From the NCBI RefSeq assembly GCF_003148495.1, contig NZ_QGGH01000004.1, positions 496,001 to 560,000 on the forward strand: a DNA stretch of 64,000 nt. Reading direction: 5' to 3'. The stretch is from Mesorhizobium loti (GTDB taxonomy: Bacteria; Pseudomonadota; Alphaproteobacteria; Rhizobiales; Rhizobiaceae). The notes under the pieces are model-generated. The model searched no databases. It was not told where the DNA came from and saw only the letters and a program-made list of their open reading frames with translations. Below, piece by piece: positions 43,246 to 51,176 of the stretch. How positions within the stretch are numbered: position 1 is the stretch's first letter; every line of letters starts with the position of its first letter. A program made the translations under genes and the position numbers.

Positions 43246-44241
43246 ATGACGGTTTTGGTAACAGGCGGCGCCGGTTATATCGGCAGCCACATGGTCTGGG
43301 AACTGCTGGATGCCGGCGAGAGCGTGGTCGTTCTCGACCGTCTTTCCACCGGTTTCGAATGGGCGGTGGCGCCGGAGGCAAAGCTGGTGGTTGGCGATGT
43401 CGCCGACAGGGAATTGGTCGGTTCGATCATCAGGGACAATCATGTCGATGCGATCATCCACTTCGCCGGCTCGATCGTGGTCCCGGAATCGGTTGCCGAC
43501 CCGCTCAGTTATTATGAGAACAACACCAGCAAGACGCGCACGCTGATCGAGACCGCGGTCCGAGAGGGCGTGCCCAATTTCATCTTTTCCTCGACCGCTG
43601 CCGTCTATGGCGGCGCCGGACTGGAGCCGGTGCGCGAGGATGCTCGCCTGGCGCCGGAATCGCCCTATGGCCTGTCCAAGCTGATGAGCGAATGGATGCT
43701 GCGCGATGCGGCGATCGCGCACCCCTTGCGCTACACGGCGCTGCGCTATTTCAACGTCGCCGGCGCCGATCCCAGGGGCCGTACCGGCCAGTCGACGCCG
43801 GGCGCCACCCATCTGATCAAGGTTGCCTGCGAAACCGCACTCGGCAAGCGGCCGTTCATGCAGGTGTTCGGCACCGACTATCCGACGCCGGACGGCACCT
43901 GCATGCGCGACTATATCCATGTCAGCGATCTGGCGGCGGCGCATCGCCTGGCCCTGCAGCGGCTGCGCGCCGGGGGCGCGAGCCTGGTCGCCAATTGCGG
44001 CTACAGCCATGGCTATTCGGTGCTCGAGGTCATCGACAGCGTGCGGCGTGCCTTCGGCCATGATTTCGAGGTGAAGATGGGCGATCGCCGCCCCGGCGAC
44101 GCCGCCGCGGTGGTTGCCAATTCGGATCTCGCCCGCGCCGAACTCGGCTGGACCCCGCAGCGCGACGATCTCGACCAGATCGTTGCCGACGCGCTCGCCT
44201 GGGAGCGCATCCTGACCGGCAAGAACTCCGCGCGCGGCTGA
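43246..44241 (+). CDS. galE: UDP-glucose 4-epimerase
   Basis: Interconverts UDP-glucose and UDP-galactose for galactose use and exopolysaccharide or LPS synthesis (exoB of rhizobia). The 331-residue SDR protein has GGAGYIGSH at the N-terminus, FAGSIVVPES, SSTAAVYGG and the catalytic Y-x3-K in YGLSK. The ATG at 43246 is the natural start. It diverges from hemA; dadA follows after 106 bases. Confidence 0.94.
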   Translation: MTVLVTGGAGYIGSHMVWELLDAGESVVVLDRLSTGFEWAVAPEAKLVVGDVADRELVGSIIRDNHVDAIIHFAGSIVVPESVADPLSYYENNTSKTRTLIETAVREGVPNFIFSSTAAVYGGAGLEPVREDARLAPESPYGLSKLMSEWMLRDAAIAHPLRYTALRYFNVAGADPRGRTGQSTPGATHLIKVACETALGKRPFMQVFGTDYPTPDGTCMRDYIHVSDLAAAHRLALQRLRAGGASLVANCGYSHGYSVLEVIDSVRRAFGHDFEVKMGDRRPGDAAAVVANSDLARAELGWTPQRDDLDQIVADALAWERILTGKNSARG

Positions 44242-44347: not shown

Positions 44348-45598
44348 ATGAAGATAACGGTGCTCGGGGCCGGTGTCGTCGGTACGGCAGCCGCCTATTA
44401 TCTGGCCAGCGACGGCCACGAGGTCACCGTGATCGAGCGCCATGCGGCGCCGGCGCGCGGCACCAGCCAGTCGAACGCCGGCCTGGTCTCGCCGGGCGAT
44501 GCCACCGCCTGGGCTTCGCCGGCGGCGCTGAAGACCTTCCTGCGCGCGCTCTACAACCATGATCTCGGCATCAAGGTGCGGCTGCGCTTCGATCCCTACT
44601 TCCTCGCCTGGAGCCTGCGCTTCCTGCGCCAATGCACGAAAGAGCGCCTGCGTGCCAACAGCCGGGTCAAGCTGCGCCTGGCGCTCTATTCGCGCGACTG
44701 TATCAACGCCATCTCCACCGATACCGGCATTCACTATGACGAGCGCAAGAAGGGCATCCTCTATTTCTTCCGCTCGCAGCACAGTCTCGACACCGGCACC
44801 GACAACTATCGCTATCTGGCCGAGCATGGCCTGCCGATCGAGATCGTCGGCCGCGACCGGCTGATCGAGCTCGAGCCGGGTCTTGCCGGAGTGAAGGAAA
44901 AGATCGCCGGCGGCGTCTATTCGCCGATCGACCAGACCGGCGATTCCCGGCAGTTCGTGGAAAAGCTCGCCGCCCACGCGGCCGGGAAACTCGGCGTGAC
45001 GTTTCTCTACGGCACGACGGTCGAGGGCCTCGACATCGAGGGTGACCGGGTGCGCGCGGTGATGACCTCGGCCGGACCGGTTCTCGGCGATGCCGTGGTC
45101 ATGTCGATGGGGCCGGAAAGCGGCCTGCTCGGGCGCCGCTACGGCATCGACCTGCCTATCTACCCGGTGAAGGGTTATACCGCGACGATTCCGCTTGAGG
45201 ACGAAAGCAAGGGCCCGACCATGGGCGGCGCCGACGAGGATCAGTTGATTGCCTATTCCAGGCTTGGCAACCGGCTGCGGCTCGCTTCGACCGCCGAATT
45301 CACCGGTTTCGACCGTACCTTCCGGCCGAGCGATTTCGCCGCCATGTTCAGGACCGGCAAGGACCTGTTCCCCGGCGCCTTCGACGAGAACAAGGCCGAG
45401 CTGTGGGCGGGCCTGCGGCCGATGATGCCGAACTCGGTGCCGGTCATTGGCAAGGCGCGTTTCAGCAACCTTTATCTCAACACCGGCCACGGCCATGTCG
45501 GCTGGACCATGGCCTGCGGCTCCGGCAAATTCCTCGCCGACCTCGTCGCCGGCCGCAAGCCGGAGATCGACCCGCAAGGGCTGGTCTACGGGGGCTAG
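44348..45598 (+). CDS. dadA: D-amino-acid dehydrogenase (DadA type)
   Basis: FAD-dependent membrane-associated dehydrogenase that deaminates D-amino acids to 2-oxo acids and passes electrons to the respiratory chain. The 416-residue DAO-family protein has GAGVVGTAAAYYLASDGHEVTVIE at the N-terminus, the DadA-typical SQSNAGLVSPG, GLRPMMPNSVPVIG and NTGHGHVGWTMACGSG. Start at 44348 behind GGGGGG. Two bases separate it from the racemase fusion, so both probably form one catabolic operon for a D/L amino-acid pair. Confidence 0.92.
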   Translation: MKITVLGAGVVGTAAAYYLASDGHEVTVIERHAAPARGTSQSNAGLVSPGDATAWASPAALKTFLRALYNHDLGIKVRLRFDPYFLAWSLRFLRQCTKERLRANSRVKLRLALYSRDCINAISTDTGIHYDERKKGILYFFRSQHSLDTGTDNYRYLAEHGLPIEIVGRDRLIELEPGLAGVKEKIAGGVYSPIDQTGDSRQFVEKLAAHAAGKLGVTFLYGTTVEGLDIEGDRVRAVMTSAGPVLGDAVVMSMGPESGLLGRRYGIDLPIYPVKGYTATIPLEDESKGPTMGGADEDQLIAYSRLGNRLRLASTAEFTGFDRTFRPSDFAAMFRTGKDLFPGAFDENKAELWAGLRPMMPNSVPVIGKARFSNLYLNTGHGHVGWTMACGSGKFLADLVAGRKPEIDPQGLVYGG

Positions 45599-45600
45599 AG

Positions 45601-47427
45601 ATGTCGGGACCGCAAGTCGCCATCGACCTTGGCCGCATCGAGCGCAATGCGCGCACGATCGTCGAGCGCTGCGCGCTGTCTGGCATCAAGGTGTTCGGCG
45701 TCACCAAGGGCACATGCGGCATGCCGCAAGTGGCGCGCGCCATGCTGCGCGGCGGCGTTGCCGGTATCGCCGAATCGCGCTTCGAGAACATCCGCCGGCT
45801 GCGCGACAGTGGCATCAACGCGCCGATCATGCTGCTGCGCAGTCCGCCGATGGCGCGTGTCGAGGAGGTGGTGCGCACCGTCGACATCAGCCTGCAGTCG
45901 GAACTCGCCACCATCCGCGAGATTTCGCGCATCGCCGAGCGCATGGGCCGCGTCCACGACATCATGCTGATGATCGATCTCGGCGATCTCCGCGAAGGCA
46001 TTTGGCCGAATGACCTCATCCCGACGGTCGAACAGATACTACAGTTCAATGGCGTGCGCATTGCCGGCATCGGCACCAATCTCGGCTGCTTCGGCGCCAT
46101 CATGCCGACGCCGGAAAACCTTGGGCAACTCGTCGCCCATGCCTACAAGACCGAGCGCCTGTCCGGCAAAAGCCTCGACTGGATTTCCGGGGGCGCCTCG
46201 TCGTCGCTGCCGCTGTTGCTCGAAGGCAAGCTGCCGGCCGGCATCAACAATCTGCGGGTCGGCGAGGCGATCCTGCAGGGCGGCGTCGAGACCTTCCGCG
46301 ACACGCCATGGGCCGAGCTCGAACCCGATGCCTGCCGGCTGACCAGCGACATCATCGAGGTCAAGCTCAAGCCGTCACGGCCGATCGGCCAATCGGGCTA
46401 CGACGCCTTCGGCAACCAGCCGGTCTTTCCCGACGAGGGCGACAGGCTGCGCGCCATCGCCAATATCGGCCGCGAGGACGTGCTGGTCGAGGGGCTGACA
46501 CCGATTGCCAAGGGGATACGGGTGCTCGGCGCCTCAAGCGACCATCTGCTGCTCGATGTCGCCGATGCCGATCCGCCGCCGGCTGTCGGCGACCGCGTTG
46601 CCTTCCGCATGAGCTATGGCGCCATGCTGCTGGCGATGACTTCGGAATATGTCGAGAAGGCCCCGATGCATGACGTCGAGGACTTTTCCGGCCGCAAGAT
46701 GGTGCAGATCACGGCCGAGCAGGGGGCTGCCGGCATACTGGCTCGGGAAGGCACCGGCGCGCGGCTGGAAGCGATGAATTTCGACGTCGTCGAACTGGCC
46801 GATGTCGAGCGGCCGCCATCGGGGCTGATCCGGCTGACTGCCGGCGCCGACCGTCGCATCGCCCACAAGGCGCTGACCGCAGCGGCGCGCGCGACGCATT
46901 CCTTCGGCCTGATCTGGATCGATTCCATCGCCGCCCTGATGCCCGAGGACGAGGACGGCATCGACTTGCCGCAAGGCTCGGTCTTGGCGCGTACCCTCGG
47001 CCTCGACCACAAGGCGGGTGCGCTGCAGCCGCAGCTGTCGCCGGAGAATGTCGTCATTGTCGGCTTGCGCCATGCCGACCCGGCCGAAGCACGGGTGCTG
47101 AAGGATTCACGCGTGTCGGCCTTCACCATGACCGATATCGATGCCATGGGCATGCGCGACCTGATGCATGAGGCGATACGCATCGCCACATCCGGCACGC
47201 AAGGCTTCCATGTCAGCTACTCGCCTACCGCAACCGAATTCGCGGGCTGGGCTGCGGGCTCCGGCGGGCTGACCGTGCGCGAGACGCATCGGGCGATGGA
47301 GGCGATCGCGCTCTCCGGCGGTCTGCTGTCGATGGATGTTTCGGGGCTGACCGCGGATCTGGAGCCCCGGATCGGCACCGACGTGATCAACTTCGTCATG
47401 TCGGTTTTCGGCAAGCGGATCTTGTAG
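45601..47427 (+). CDS. Fusion of alanine/ornithine-racemase-like PLP domain with degenerate arginase-fold domain
   Basis: 608 residues. Residues about 1-355 are a fold-III PLP racemase of the alanine/ornithine racemase group: VFGVTKGTCGMPQVAR (PLP Lys K36), GIAESRFENIRRLRDSG, MLLRSPP, MIDLGDLREGIWP. Residues about 364-608 align with arginase over the whole length: IWIDSIAAL, NVVIVGLRHADPAEARVLKD, AFTMTDIDAMG, GGLTVRETHRAMEAI and a SVFGKRIL end. The arginase metal ligands are mostly lost: GGDHS is G-A-D-R-R (415-419), DAHxD is D441-S-I-A-A, and the DxD pair is S541/T543. So a racemase with a pseudo-ureohydrolase module, perhaps binding arginine or ornithine. Coupled to dadA two bases upstream. 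Confidence 0.85.
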   Translation: MSGPQVAIDLGRIERNARTIVERCALSGIKVFGVTKGTCGMPQVARAMLRGGVAGIAESRFENIRRLRDSGINAPIMLLRSPPMARVEEVVRTVDISLQSELATIREISRIAERMGRVHDIMLMIDLGDLREGIWPNDLIPTVEQILQFNGVRIAGIGTNLGCFGAIMPTPENLGQLVAHAYKTERLSGKSLDWISGGASSSLPLLLEGKLPAGINNLRVGEAILQGGVETFRDTPWAELEPDACRLTSDIIEVKLKPSRPIGQSGYDAFGNQPVFPDEGDRLRAIANIGREDVLVEGLTPIAKGIRVLGASSDHLLLDVADADPPPAVGDRVAFRMSYGAMLLAMTSEYVEKAPMHDVEDFSGRKMVQITAEQGAAGILAREGTGARLEAMNFDVVELADVERPPSGLIRLTAGADRRIAHKALTAAARATHSFGLIWIDSIAALMPEDEDGIDLPQGSVLARTLGLDHKAGALQPQLSPENVVIVGLRHADPAEARVLKDSRVSAFTMTDIDAMGMRDLMHEAIRIATSGTQGFHVSYSPTATEFAGWAAGSGGLTVRETHRAMEAIALSGGLLSMDVSGLTADLEPRIGTDVINFVMSVFGKRIL

Positions 47428-47513: not shown

Positions 47514-48890
47514 CTATCCCTGCACTTCGACTGCCGCGCGCCAGGCACTGGCGTAGTCGGCCCAGACCGGGTCGGTTGGCGGATCCATTCTTTCGCCTTT
47601 GCCCTGCGCCATCCGTTGATCGGTTGCCAGCAATGCGGCGCCGATGCTGGTGCCGGTGGCAGCCTCGGACGCAACAACGGCACGTGCCGTGCCGGCTGCC
47701 AGCATGCCGACAAAGAGCCGGTTGCGGGCAAAGGGCCCTTCGATTGTGGTCGGGCCGTCGGCGCCGATCAGGTCGAGGCAGGTCGCCGTCATCAACGCCA
47801 GATAGAACGAGATGGCAGCAAAGCGCTGGCCATTGTTCATGCCGTCGGCGTTGAGCCATATCGCAGTCTGATGCGGGAACGGTCCCGACCCTTGCTGGGT
47901 CGACGGCAGCAGCAGCACCTTTCGCGCCAGCACGGCGCCGACATCGGCTTCGGTCCACTGCTCCGGTAGGTCCTTCGTCAGCACGGAAAACTCGCGGCCA
48001 CCCATGAAGCGCGCCGAGGGAACGGGATCGCCGAGTGCGTTGACATTGACCAGAGTGTCGCGCGCGGCATCCAGCGCAATCTGTTTGCCGCCGACCGCCA
48101 TCGACACCACCCAGGTGCCGGTCGAGACGACGGAGAAAGGCGGTTTGTCGGAGAGAAGATGCGGCAGCAGCGAGGCGTTGGAATCATGCAGGCCGCAGAA
48201 GACCGGCGTTTGCGGATCGAGTCCGGTTCGCACCGCAACGATAGGCAGGATCGGGCCGAGGCGATCCCTCGCCGTCCGCACCGGCGCCATCAGCCCGCGC
48301 CATTCCAGGCTGTCGATCAATGATGAAAAATCCGCCGTCCACGGGTTCCACAGATCGGTGTGGCAGCCGAGTGAAGTCACCTCGTTAGCGGCGATGCCGG
48401 TCAGTCGCAAGGCCCAGTATTGCGGGTACATCAGCATCGCTGCAGCCCTGGCGAACTCCGCCGCGAAGCTTTTCTGCTGCCAGAAGAATTGTGCACCGAG
48501 ATTGAGGCCGAGCGGCAGGCGCGGCGTGCCGGTCTCGGCGAAAGGCGGGCGGATCGCTTCATAGTCCGCTGCCAGCCGGTCGGGGCCGTCGAATTCATAG
48601 TCGAGCACCGGCAGCACCAGCTCGCCCGCGGCATCGACCAGCACGCCCGTCGCGCCATGTGTCGTGATCGAAATGGCGTCGATGCGCTGTTCGCGGTTGA
48701 GGCTGGCAAGGCTGTCGAGGATGAACGTCCACAGTGCCTCGACATCGTGGCGGGGGTAGGGCGCTAGCCGCACCGGCGCATTGGCCGTGCGGCGCAGCGC
48801 GACCTCGCTCAACGTCGTGAGGTCGACCAGCGCCACTTTGGCGTTGGTCTTGCCGATGTCGATGACGGCGACGTGGCGCATCGCACTCAT
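47514..48890 (-). CDS. rhaK: L-rhamnose/rhamnulose kinase (FGGY family)
   Basis: Cytoplasmic sugar kinase of the rhamnose pathway; in Rhizobium leguminosarum RhaK is also needed for transport activity. The 458-residue protein begins [23 protein letters not shown] (phosphate loop) and has [22 protein letters not shown] and a second ATPase half with EGPFARN. The ATG at 48890 overlaps the rhaU stop (ATGA). Last gene of the minus-strand rha operon. Confidence 0.92.
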
Positions 48891-49204
48891 GCCATATGGA
48901 ACACGGTTTCCAGCGGCACGGCCACCGGCTCGTTGTCCGGCCTGGTCTCCATGATGTCGGCCATGTGTGCCCACCAGCGCTGCATCACCGGATGCTTGGG
49001 CAGTTCGTCCATGCTGTGGTTGTCTCGCCGCCACAGCACGCCGAACAGGATATTGGTCTCTTCGTCGAGATGGATGGAATAATCGGAGACGCCGGCCTGT
49101 TTAAGCAATAAGACCAGCGACGGCCAGATCTCGTCATGGCGCTGCTTGTACTCGGCCTTCATGCCCGGCTTGAGCTTCATCTTGAACGCGTATTTCTCAG
49201 GCAT
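48887..49204 (-). CDS. rhaU: L-rhamnose mutarotase
   Basis: Small dimeric enzyme that interconverts alpha and beta L-rhamnose. The 105-residue protein has the RhaM/RhaU motifs [19 protein letters not shown] (His catalytic), [10 protein letters not shown] and [15 protein letters not shown]. Overlaps neighbours at both ends, in the order T-P-Q-U-K known from Rhizobium. Confidence 0.94.
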
Positions 49205-50199
49205 CAGCTGTTACCACGCAGCCGCCGCCAGACAATCGGCAGCGCGATGACGATGATCAGCAGCAGGCCGATGAAGATCGACATGACGATGCCGGGCACG
49301 TTGAGCAGGCCAAGCCCGAAGGTCACCAGCCCCATGATGAGGGCGGCGAGCACGACGCCAACAATGCTGCCGGCGCCACCAAGAATGCTGACGCCGCCGA
49401 GTACCACCATGGTGATGACTTCCAGCTCGTAACCCTGTGCGATCGACGGTCGCGTCGAACCGAGCCGCGAGGTTATCAGCACCGAGGCGATGCCCGACAT
49501 CAGCCCGGTCAGGCAGAACAGCATGAACTTGGTGCGGCCGACGCGCACGCCGGAAAATTGTGCAGCGACCGGATTGTTGCCGATGGCAAAGACGCGACGG
49601 CCGAAACTCGTGCGGTGCAGAAGGAACCAGTAAACGACGGCAGCGATCAGAAAGAGCACAAGTTCGAACGACACCACCCACCAGACATAGCCCTGGCCGA
49701 AAAAGGCGAAGCTTTCGGGATAGCCCTTGTAGGCCTGGTCGCCGAGGATGATGAAGGCGATGCCGCGAAACAGGCTCATCGTGCCGATGGTGACGACGAT
49801 CGAGGGCAGGCCGAGCCTTGTCACCAGCAACCCGTTGAAGGCGCCGCAACCAAGCCCGACGACGATGCCGATCAGCACCAGCACCGGTGTGCCGGCGCCG
49901 GCCTGCACGGCCATGCCCATCATGGTCGACGCCAGCGCGATGATGGCGGCCACCGACAGATCGATCTCGCCCGAGATGATCAGCAGCGCCATGGCAAAGG
50001 CGATCAGACCCTTCTCGGTGAAATTGAAGGTGAGATCGGACAGCGAATACGGGTCGAGGAAATAGGGCGAGGCGAAGCTGTTGATGGCGAAGATGGCGAC
50101 GGCCACCACGACCAGCAGCGCTTCCCAGGAAAAGATCGCCGCACGGAACGGCTTGTCGAGCCGGTCGGGAATGTGGCGCGGGGCAGGGATGTCGGTCAT
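49204..50199 (-). CDS. rhaQ: Rhamnose ABC transporter permease RhaQ
   Basis: Inner-membrane permease of the BPD_transp_2 family, 331 residues with about nine or ten helices and the conserved [20 protein letters not shown] and [14 protein letters not shown]. Shares one base with the rhaU start and overlaps rhaP by an ATGA junction. Forms a heterodimer with RhaP. Confidence 0.91.
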
Positions 50200-51176
50200 G
50201 TCACCGCCTCCACCTTTCTGAGGATGATGCGGCCCTGCTGGCGTTCGCCGCGCGCGTTGAGCACGACGGCCAGAATGATGGCGCTGCCCGAAATCGCCAT
50301 CTGCCAGAAGGGTGAGATGTTGATGACCGGCAGCGCGTTGGAGATGATGCCGAGGAACAGCGCCCCCAACACCGCGCCGCCGACCGAGCCGATGCCGCCG
50401 GCGATGGAAATGCCGCCAATGACGCAGGCGGCGATGATGTTAAGCTCATAGCCGTTGGCGACCTCGACCGAGGCGATCACATAGCGCGAGATCCAGAGAT
50501 AGCCCGAGAGGCCGCCGATCATGCCGGAGATGCAGAAGACGATGAATTTCGTCCGGCCGACATCAATGCCGGCATAGACTGAAGCCGTCGGGTTGACGCC
50601 GATGGCATAGATCGAGCGGCCGAGCGCGGTGCGCGTCATCAAGACGAAGAACAGCGCAATGACCAGGATGGCGATCCACGACAGCACCGGAATGCCGAGG
50701 AAGGCCGCACGCTGGAAGCCGATGAAGTCCGGGCTCATCTTGTCGGCATTGACCCAGGCGCCGCCGGACAGGACGAAGGTGGCGCCGCGATAGATGGTCA
50801 GCGTACCCAATGTGACCACGATCGAAGGGATGTTTAGCCGCCACACCAAAAGGCCGTTGATGGCGCCGAGCACCAGCCCGACCAGCAGTGCGATGACGAT
50901 CAGCAGCGGGATCGGGATCGCCGGATGCGCGGCGTTCAGCATCGCCACCACCATGCCGGTGAAGCAGAGGTTGGACGCCATCGACAGATCGATCGACCGG
51001 GTCAGGATGACGACCATCTGGCCCAGCGCCAGGATCATCAGGATCGAGGTGTCGTTGAACACTTGGCGCAGATTGCCGGGGTCGGCAAAGGCCGGGAAGC
51101 GCGTCGAGATCAATCCGATCAGCACGACGATGGCCGCGAACAGCCAGATTTCACGGTATTTGAGGAAAGCCTTCAT
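50196..51176 (-). CDS. rhaP: Rhamnose ABC transporter permease RhaP
   Basis: Second permease subunit, 326 residues, same family: RSIDLSMASNLCFTGM and GGISIAGGIGSVGGAVLG. Start at 51176 overlaps the rhaT stop (ATGA); end overlaps rhaQ. Partner of RhaQ, powered by RhaT and fed by RhaS. Confidence 0.91.
   Translation of the reverse strand: MKAFLKYREIWLFAAIVVLIGLISTRFPAFADPGNLRQVFNDTSILMILALGQMVVILTRSIDLSMASNLCFTGMVVAMLNAAHPAIPIPLLIVIALLVGLVLGAINGLLVWRLNIPSIVVTLGTLTIYRGATFVLSGGAWVNADKMSPDFIGFQRAAFLGIPVLSWIAILVIALFFVLMTRTALGRSIYAIGVNPTASVYAGIDVGRTKFIVFCISGMIGGLSGYLWISRYVIASVEVANGYELNIIAACVIGGISIAGGIGSVGGAVLGALFLGIISNALPVINISPFWQMAISGSAIILAVVLNARGERQQGRIILRKVEAVT

Follow-up and report, generated by a model that had tools for sequence, protein, structure and literature searches.

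The locus considered here raises the question of what an arginase-like domain that has lost its metal site could contribute to the amino-acid racemase to which it is fused. The gene lies in the window, the whole 64,000-nucleotide stretch of Mesorhizobium loti DNA that was analysed (G000:C4:496001-560000), and consists of an open frame of 608 codons on the plus strand (45601-47427) that reads as 608 amino acids with zero internal stops. This one frame carries two Pfam domains, Ala_racemase_N (residues 8-224, E 5.5e-26) and Arginase (residues 408-587, E 5.6e-17), in agreement with the initial annotation, which had described a PLP racemase joined to a C-terminal arginase-like domain. The two-base distance that it had given to the preceding dadA gene is also correct: the ATG of the fusion is found at 45601, and the gene for the dadA-family D-amino-acid dehydrogenase (44348-45598, 460.9 bits to NCBIfam NF001933, above its cut-off of 383) ends two bases before it on the same strand. 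In both annotated records inspected (n=2), the fusion is named 'alanine racemase'. A sequencing error fusing two genes, an artefact that the initial annotation had envisaged, is very unlikely, as the same intact 608-residue frame is present in 22 of the 61 genomes of the genus and a full-length fusion in one frame in 75 of the 80 loci retained by a contig scan (the best 80 of 83 relatives). Further upstream, 106 bases before dadA and on the same strand, lies galE (43246-44241), without obvious arginine link; 53 of the 78 full-length loci have a galE homologue in the neighbourhood of the fusion. On the other side, genes for an FGGY sugar kinase, an L-rhamnose mutarotase and ribose-type ABC permeases (47517-51176) lie on the opposite strand and converge on the fusion.

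The N-terminal part (residues 1-356; 45601-46668, plus strand) is a PLP racemase domain with the fold of ornithine and alanine racemases, according to PF01168, the racem_Orr family and a structural model. Its PLP lysine, K36 (45706-45708), is conserved in 36 of the 36 racemases compared, and so are R219 (46255-46257) and Y339 (46615-46617), present in all 20 fusions and all 16 single-domain homologues, which we take to be the PLP-site arginine and the catalytic tyrosine, respectively. The model of this part matches alanine racemase 1vfh with a Z-score of 29.4 over 336 residues; with fold, lysine, tyrosine and arginine all there, the protein is a member of the alanine-racemase fold. Enzymes of this fold are dimers in which the catalytic tyrosine is supplied by the partner subunit. 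The closest NCBIfam model is that of ornithine racemase (racem_Orr, NF040742), with 392.9 bits over residues 4-353, yet this score stays below its cut-off of 480. The 16 single-domain Orr homologues (30-43% identity) share the racemase domain and its catalytic residues with the fusion, but end near fusion residue 353-355, with 2-46 residues left and without the arginase domain. The fusion also differs from Orr in the pathway genes seen in its branch, which are those of arginine and not of ornithine.

In a fold search with the model of the whole chain (AlphaFold2, mean pLDDT 83.9, and a pTM of 0.60 that leaves the relative placing of the two domains uncertain), the 50 matches listed were all PLP enzymes with the fold of the racemase, the arginase fold being missing because the racemase domain fills this list. 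Residues 356-608 were therefore folded alone for the comparison (AlphaFold2, mean pLDDT 85.7, pTM 0.87). This model matches Thermus arginase 2ef5_A (Z 28.7, rmsd 2.8, 238 residues aligned) and the Bacillus caldovelox enzyme 1cev (Z 27.5), which is the structural match that the initial annotation had proposed to look for with AlphaFold. The arginase fold that it had predicted thus stands, whereas its start at the GGDHS region does not, as the model puts the first strand at about residue 366. From first strand to last helix, the pseudo-arginase domain defined by PF00491, profile and model spans about residues 365-608 (46693-47424, plus strand). It scores 62.6 bits against the Pfam cut-off of 22 and 72.0 bits against the arginase equivalog TIGR01229, below the cut-off of 227.6; its profile matches bacterial arginases with E 2.1e-36, MetCb with 1.2e-08 and an agmatinase-type protein with 1.1e-07.

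In the numbering of B. caldovelox arginase, the alignment shows R418 (46852-46854), within the motif GADRR (415-419), in place of the metal ligand His99, D441-S-I-A-A445 (46921-46935) in place of D122-x-H124-x-D126, and S541-P-T543 (47221-47229) in place of D226-x-D228. The six ligand positions are occupied by R418, D441, I443, A445, S541 and T543, which leaves D441 as the sole ligand, just as the initial annotation had listed them when it proposed that the racemase carries an inactive ureohydrolase fold. Among 26 non-redundant fusions, representatives of 96 at <90% identity, H99 is kept in 3, D122 in 22, H124 in 1, D126 in 3, D226 in 3 and D228 in 0, while the other cleft residues N137, H139 and E271 are kept in 0, 1 and 1. 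D228 was seemingly kept in 10 of 79 fusions in a first alignment, whose column at this position is uncertain, and in 0 of 26 upon realignment. No fusion with a complete metal site was found among the 79 fusions or the 26 representatives; ligand loss is a general feature of the fusions examined, and the homologue with intact ligands that the initial annotation had considered as a counterexample did not appear among them. The remnants of the site differ from branch to branch, with H99 in L110, L117 and L123 and both D126 and D226 in L125-L127, which suggests an active arginase ancestor at the root of the fusions. Bacterial arginases (RocF; 1cev, 6dkt, 6nbk, 2ef4) share with the fusion the fold, an end without the Arg308 tail and a D/R/E/E contact, but the fusion has lost five of the six metal ligands and Glu271, and about 31-34 arginase residues are missing near the start of its domain in the profile alignment.

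This D/R/E/E contact is the subunit-contact (arginine) site. On the plus strand it consists of D514 (47140-47142), R560-E561 (47278-47283) and E567 (47299-47301), counted on the sequence alignment as the equivalents of B. caldovelox D199, R249-E250 and E256. All four residues are invariant in 79/79 fusions, a set that is mostly Mesorhizobium, in 26/26 non-redundant representatives and, at 70% identity, in 11/11. The same residues are found in six bacterial arginase sequences from four species. In a control set of 11 proteins of the arginase family, most of them of agmatinase type and encoded in the window's genome, D199 is kept in 4, R249 and E250 in 6 each and E256 in 3, so that the pattern kept by the fusions is the arginase-type one and not one found superfamily-wide. 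D199, E250 and E256 presumably correspond to human Asp204, Glu256 and Glu262, by our own count. The chain ends with I607-L608 (47419-47424), and I607 is invariant (29/29). Judging by the end residues of the structural alignment, the last residue of the model (253) pairs with residue 309 of human arginase I, which places I607 at the Arg308 position. In mammalian arginase, Arg308 is described as bridging Glu262 and, in the rat enzyme, Asp204 of the neighbouring subunit, and in the B. caldovelox structure 3CEV, without Arg308, free L-arginine is reported in that interface (PMC7925462). With Ile instead of Arg at this position, the pocket of the fusions is not filled by an arginine of the protein itself and, like that of bacterial arginases, may be open.

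From these residues we infer that the pseudo-arginase keeps the subunit contact and that, perhaps, this contact retains the arginine pocket. True arginases share the D/R/E/E residues, so their invariance alone cannot separate packing from arginine binding, and they may be kept for packing alone. The invariant site is nevertheless a concrete candidate for the role of 'sensor or assembly module' that the initial annotation had suggested. With the metal site lost and the contact site kept, the dead half of the protein probably serves to assemble or regulate an enzyme of arginine breakdown.

The pseudo-arginase is under purifying selection. In comparisons with ten relatives (Nei-Gojobori, ungapped pairs), dN/dS amounts to 0.10-0.40 for this part and 0.07-0.29 for the racemase part, and the two are similar in nine of the ten cases, the exception being L097 (0.40 against 0.21). 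This selection, together with the 22 intact copies in 61 genus genomes, led to the rejection of a C-terminal domain that is a functionless remnant. Such a remnant would fit the branch-by-branch decay of the metal site and the presence of one same-genus copy with a stop and two others with frameshifts, but it is hardly credible given a dN/dS near that of the racemase part in nine of ten comparisons and residues that are invariant across very divergent lineages. The broken copies (L026 in genome G029, L093 and L119, by stop or frameshift) would mean that some strains can do without the gene, or else reflect assembly errors.

Phylogenetic analysis places the conserved fusion in one clade across Proteobacteria and Spirochaetes: 24 of 24 fusions group together (ultrafast bootstrap 87), with a dehydrogenase-linked branch of 15 (98) and a Spirochaete/Roseovarius branch of 5 (90). 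A third, very divergent sub-branch (L166-L169), from genomes of the same family and found in the family survey only, is part of this tree and absent from that of 20 fusions and 16 single-domain homologues. Its Arginase domain is invisible to Pfam at E 1e-5 in L166 and barely detected in L169; nevertheless, L166-L169 carry all four contact residues. Within the genus, the 61 genomes hold, besides the 22 intact copies, one that is interrupted by a stop codon (G029) and another that is divided between contigs (G014). Of the 394 genomes sampled in the family survey, 19 gave a match: 14 of these cover the full model, one lies at the end of a contig and four belong to the divergent sub-branch. A phylum sample at E 1e-40 gave the full-length fusion in 4/398 genomes and the racemase part alone in 10/398. 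The stricter searches in the family of G194 (0/394 genomes at E 1e-130) and the class of G114 (0/48 at E 1e-125) are weak evidence of absence, and a viral scan yielded zero relatives of the fusion. The contig scan used two racemase peptide patterns, and so missed fusions with other sequences; its best 80 of 83 relatives come, among others, from Mesorhizobium, Aminobacter, Pseudaminobacter, Labrys, Shinella, Aestuariivirga, Taklimakanibacter, a Burkholderiaceae MAG, Thiofilum, Spirochaete MAGs and Roseovarius. Five of these 80 were left out of the counts, L093 and L119 as frameshifted and L104, L128 and L131 as lying at contig ends.

The genetic context of the fusion points to its pathway. In 70 of the 78 full-length loci, the gene immediately upstream of the fusion encodes a dehydrogenase homologue; the remaining eight are L080 (at a contig end), L100 and L114 (on longer contigs) and five from Spirochaetes and Roseovarius, two of which (L126 and L127) have just about 1 kb of upstream sequence. 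Other neighbours among the 78 loci are a decarboxylase (16), an aldehyde dehydrogenase (16), a speB homologue (14) and RidA (14). In Shinella, Labrys and Thiofilum, the fusion is surrounded by a 2-ketoarginine operon with genes for guanidinobutyrase, 5-guanidino-2-oxopentanoate decarboxylase, aldehyde dehydrogenase, D-amino-acid dehydrogenase and RidA. The order in Shinella zoogloeoides is permease, UspA, speB, 5-guanidino-2-oxopentanoate decarboxylase, aldehyde dehydrogenase, ATP-grasp, C45 hydrolase, D-amino-acid dehydrogenase, fusion and RidA. The speB product of Shinella matches guanidinobutyrase 3nio with 511 bits, ahead of 3-guanidinopropionase (303) and the best agmatinase (206), the decarboxylase reaches 737 bits against NF005712 (cut-off 500), and the Rid protein belongs to the Rid family PF01042. 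The core gene set is also found in Thiofilum and the Burkholderiaceae MAG, with 45-67% identity to the Shinella genes, and speB, decarboxylase and dehydrogenase genes accompany the fusion in locus L098, a close neighbour of Mesorhizobium in the tree. The ATP-grasp 'biotin carboxylase' (NF005096) and the C45 Ntn acyltransferase/hydrolase (L033 6214-8691 and relatives) each have a gene in the vicinity of the fusion at 16 of the 78 loci, without an evident 2-ketoarginine step; as a guess, the pair may make or open an amide of arginine or guanidinobutyrate. At L173 (10759-11613), an agmatinase-family gene lies about 30-40 bases upstream of a divergent fusion, which is followed by a nicotinate phosphoribosyltransferase gene.

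In the window's organism, dadA (and galE) alone are found upstream of the fusion, and a decarboxylase homologue is encoded elsewhere (G000:C4:86388-87956, 775 bits to NF005712), near a binding protein of lysine/arginine/ornithine type (TIGR01096, 226 bits, below the cut-off of 256). Among the arginase-family loci retrieved from this genome, the protein most like guanidinobutyrase is only 43% identical to the Shinella operon enzyme. The decarboxylase homologue is clustered with the ABC binding protein and a dimethylargininase-like gene that scores below its family cut-off (L134, G000:C4:78000-97000), possibly a methylarginine or arginine route. A different context is found in L123 (Spirochaetales) and L130 (Roseovarius), where the fusion lies with ord, ortB, oraS, oraE and glmL of the D-ornithine aminomutase pathway; oraE and ord were found in these two loci alone. 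This branch keeps the same contact residues, so that arginine sensing would not be tied to arginine as substrate. Genes for NhaC-type antiporters, which match the ArcD arginine/ornithine antiporter below its threshold, are located upstream of the fusion in the Spirochaete locus L125 (8425-9966) and in L130 (3511-4941).

The explanation that fits best, and that we hold to be reasonably probable, is an L/D-arginine racemase working with DadA in a 2-ketoarginine route, in which the pseudo-arginase assembles the enzyme and perhaps regulates it through arginine. The racemase would interconvert L-arginine and D-arginine, and the DadA-type dehydrogenase would take D-arginine through iminoarginine to 2-ketoarginine, helped by the Rid protein where present. 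Decarboxylation of 2-ketoarginine would then yield 4-guanidinobutyraldehyde, its oxidation 4-guanidinobutyrate, and hydrolysis of the latter 4-aminobutyrate plus urea. The initial annotation had proposed a conversion of L-ornithine or arginine to the D-form and on to the 2-oxo acid; the coupling to a D-amino-acid dehydrogenase holds up, this pathway gains support, and the guanidinobutyrase-type, decarboxylase and RidA-type (14/78) genes in the operons of relatives make arginine rather than ornithine the probable substrate in the window's branch. The pseudo-arginase would probably be a trimer-forming module, whose contact, combined with the racemase dimer, would yield a 3 x 2 hexamer. Arginine bound at this contact could let assembly or activity track the substrate supply, and the free L-arginine in the contact of a bacterial arginase is the reason why the pseudo-arginase may tune the enzyme in this way. 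A similar chemistry is described for Pseudomonas DauA, where D-arginine goes through iminoarginine to 2-ketoarginine and some Rid proteins act on iminoarginine (PMC5619798). In that study, Rid2 and Rid3, but neither RidA nor Rid1, are reported to deaminate iminoarginine, RidA itself being without significant activity on it (PMC5619798). DauA is a dehydrogenase within a racemisation pathway, whereas a direct racemase is proposed for the fusion, next to a dehydrogenase of the DadA family.

Against arginine speak the position of the decarboxylase gene away from the fusion in the window's organism, the weak likeness of its guanidinobutyrase-like protein to the Shinella enzyme, the presence of the decarboxylase in just 16 of 78 loci, the broad DadA family to which the dehydrogenase belongs, and a nearest NCBIfam model that is ornithine racemase, though below cut-off. 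The racemase might instead act on ornithine, or on ornithine and lysine, with dadA leading to 2-oxo-5-aminopentanoate and the pseudo-arginase left from an arginase-racemase that made D-ornithine from L-arginine. The closest curated model would agree with this, as would the sister branch L123/L130 with its ord-ortB-oraS-oraE-glmL clusters, in which D-ornithine is the needed product, and the branch-specific metal-site remnants expected from an active arginase ancestor. It seems unlikely in view of the guanidino-specific neighbours at 16 of 78 loci in the window's branch, the restriction of oraE and ord to L123 and L130, and the score of 393 bits against the ornithine racemase cut-off of 480.

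How the pseudo-arginase would act within an arginine racemase can be read in several ways. That it is pure trimer or hexamer glue, binding no ligand, does not conflict with the first half of the favoured explanation and has nearly an even chance of being right. The retained fold and the invariant contact residues suit such a glue, and residues of this kind serve the trimer in mammalian arginase; on the other hand, B. caldovelox arginase without the Arg308 tail can hold free L-arginine there (PMC7925462), and the fusions too end before this tail, with Ile in its place. An arginine-gated racemase, with the dead arginase kept as allosteric sensor, is put forward tentatively and is somewhat doubtful: L-arginine between pseudo-arginase subunits (at D514/E567) would close the trimer and switch on or assemble the hexameric racemase, the same sensor sitting on the ornithine racemase of Spirochaetes and Roseovarius. 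Finally, arginine might be held metal-free in the old active-site cleft, to feed or specify the racemase, for which the retained fold and the D122 position kept in 22 of 26 non-redundant fusions could be cited; with the other cleft residues so variable (N137 in 0, H139 in 1 and E271 in 1 of 26), this is quite improbable.

A pseudo-arginase attached to a PLP enzyme is already known from the ornithine decarboxylase/arginase Oda of Fusobacteriaceae, a PLP-dependent protein of arginine/ornithine metabolism that has at its C-terminus an arginase domain in which two metal-binding Asp are described as replaced by Ser609 and Asn713 (PMC8503589, PMC12826042). The PLP part of Oda is a decarboxylase of the aspartate-aminotransferase fold, whereas the fusion has the alanine-racemase fold and is thus not an Oda. 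A metal-free pseudo-arginase is also known in MetCb of metformin hydrolase, where it is reported as a binding partner in a hexamer (PMC11271267). The sequence match between the two is weak (E 1.2e-08), and MetCb acts as a subunit of its own, activating a partner that is a true hydrolase, while the pseudo-arginase of the fusion is joined to a racemase. A pairing of the MetCb type was not found, as no arginase-family partner gene occurs among the six neighbouring proteins scanned. Literature searches returned no paper on the fusion or its pathway among the matches listed, and the racemase version and its place in an arginine pathway are likewise absent among them.

The functions of arginase-family proteins without a metal centre have been called elusive in the literature (PMC11271267). 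Here, the catalytic site is gone and one contact or ligand site is conserved without exception among the sequences counted, in several phyla-level lineages, and a site that stands alone in this way makes the retained function testable by few point changes. Taken with the Fusobacterium decarboxylase, the fusion shows that, in arginine/ornithine metabolism, arginase domains without their metals occur on two PLP folds unrelated to each other. In Rhizobiales, it is a candidate gene for a dedicated arginine racemase and, if gated by arginine, this racemase would commit arginine to the D-arginine/2-ketoarginine route.
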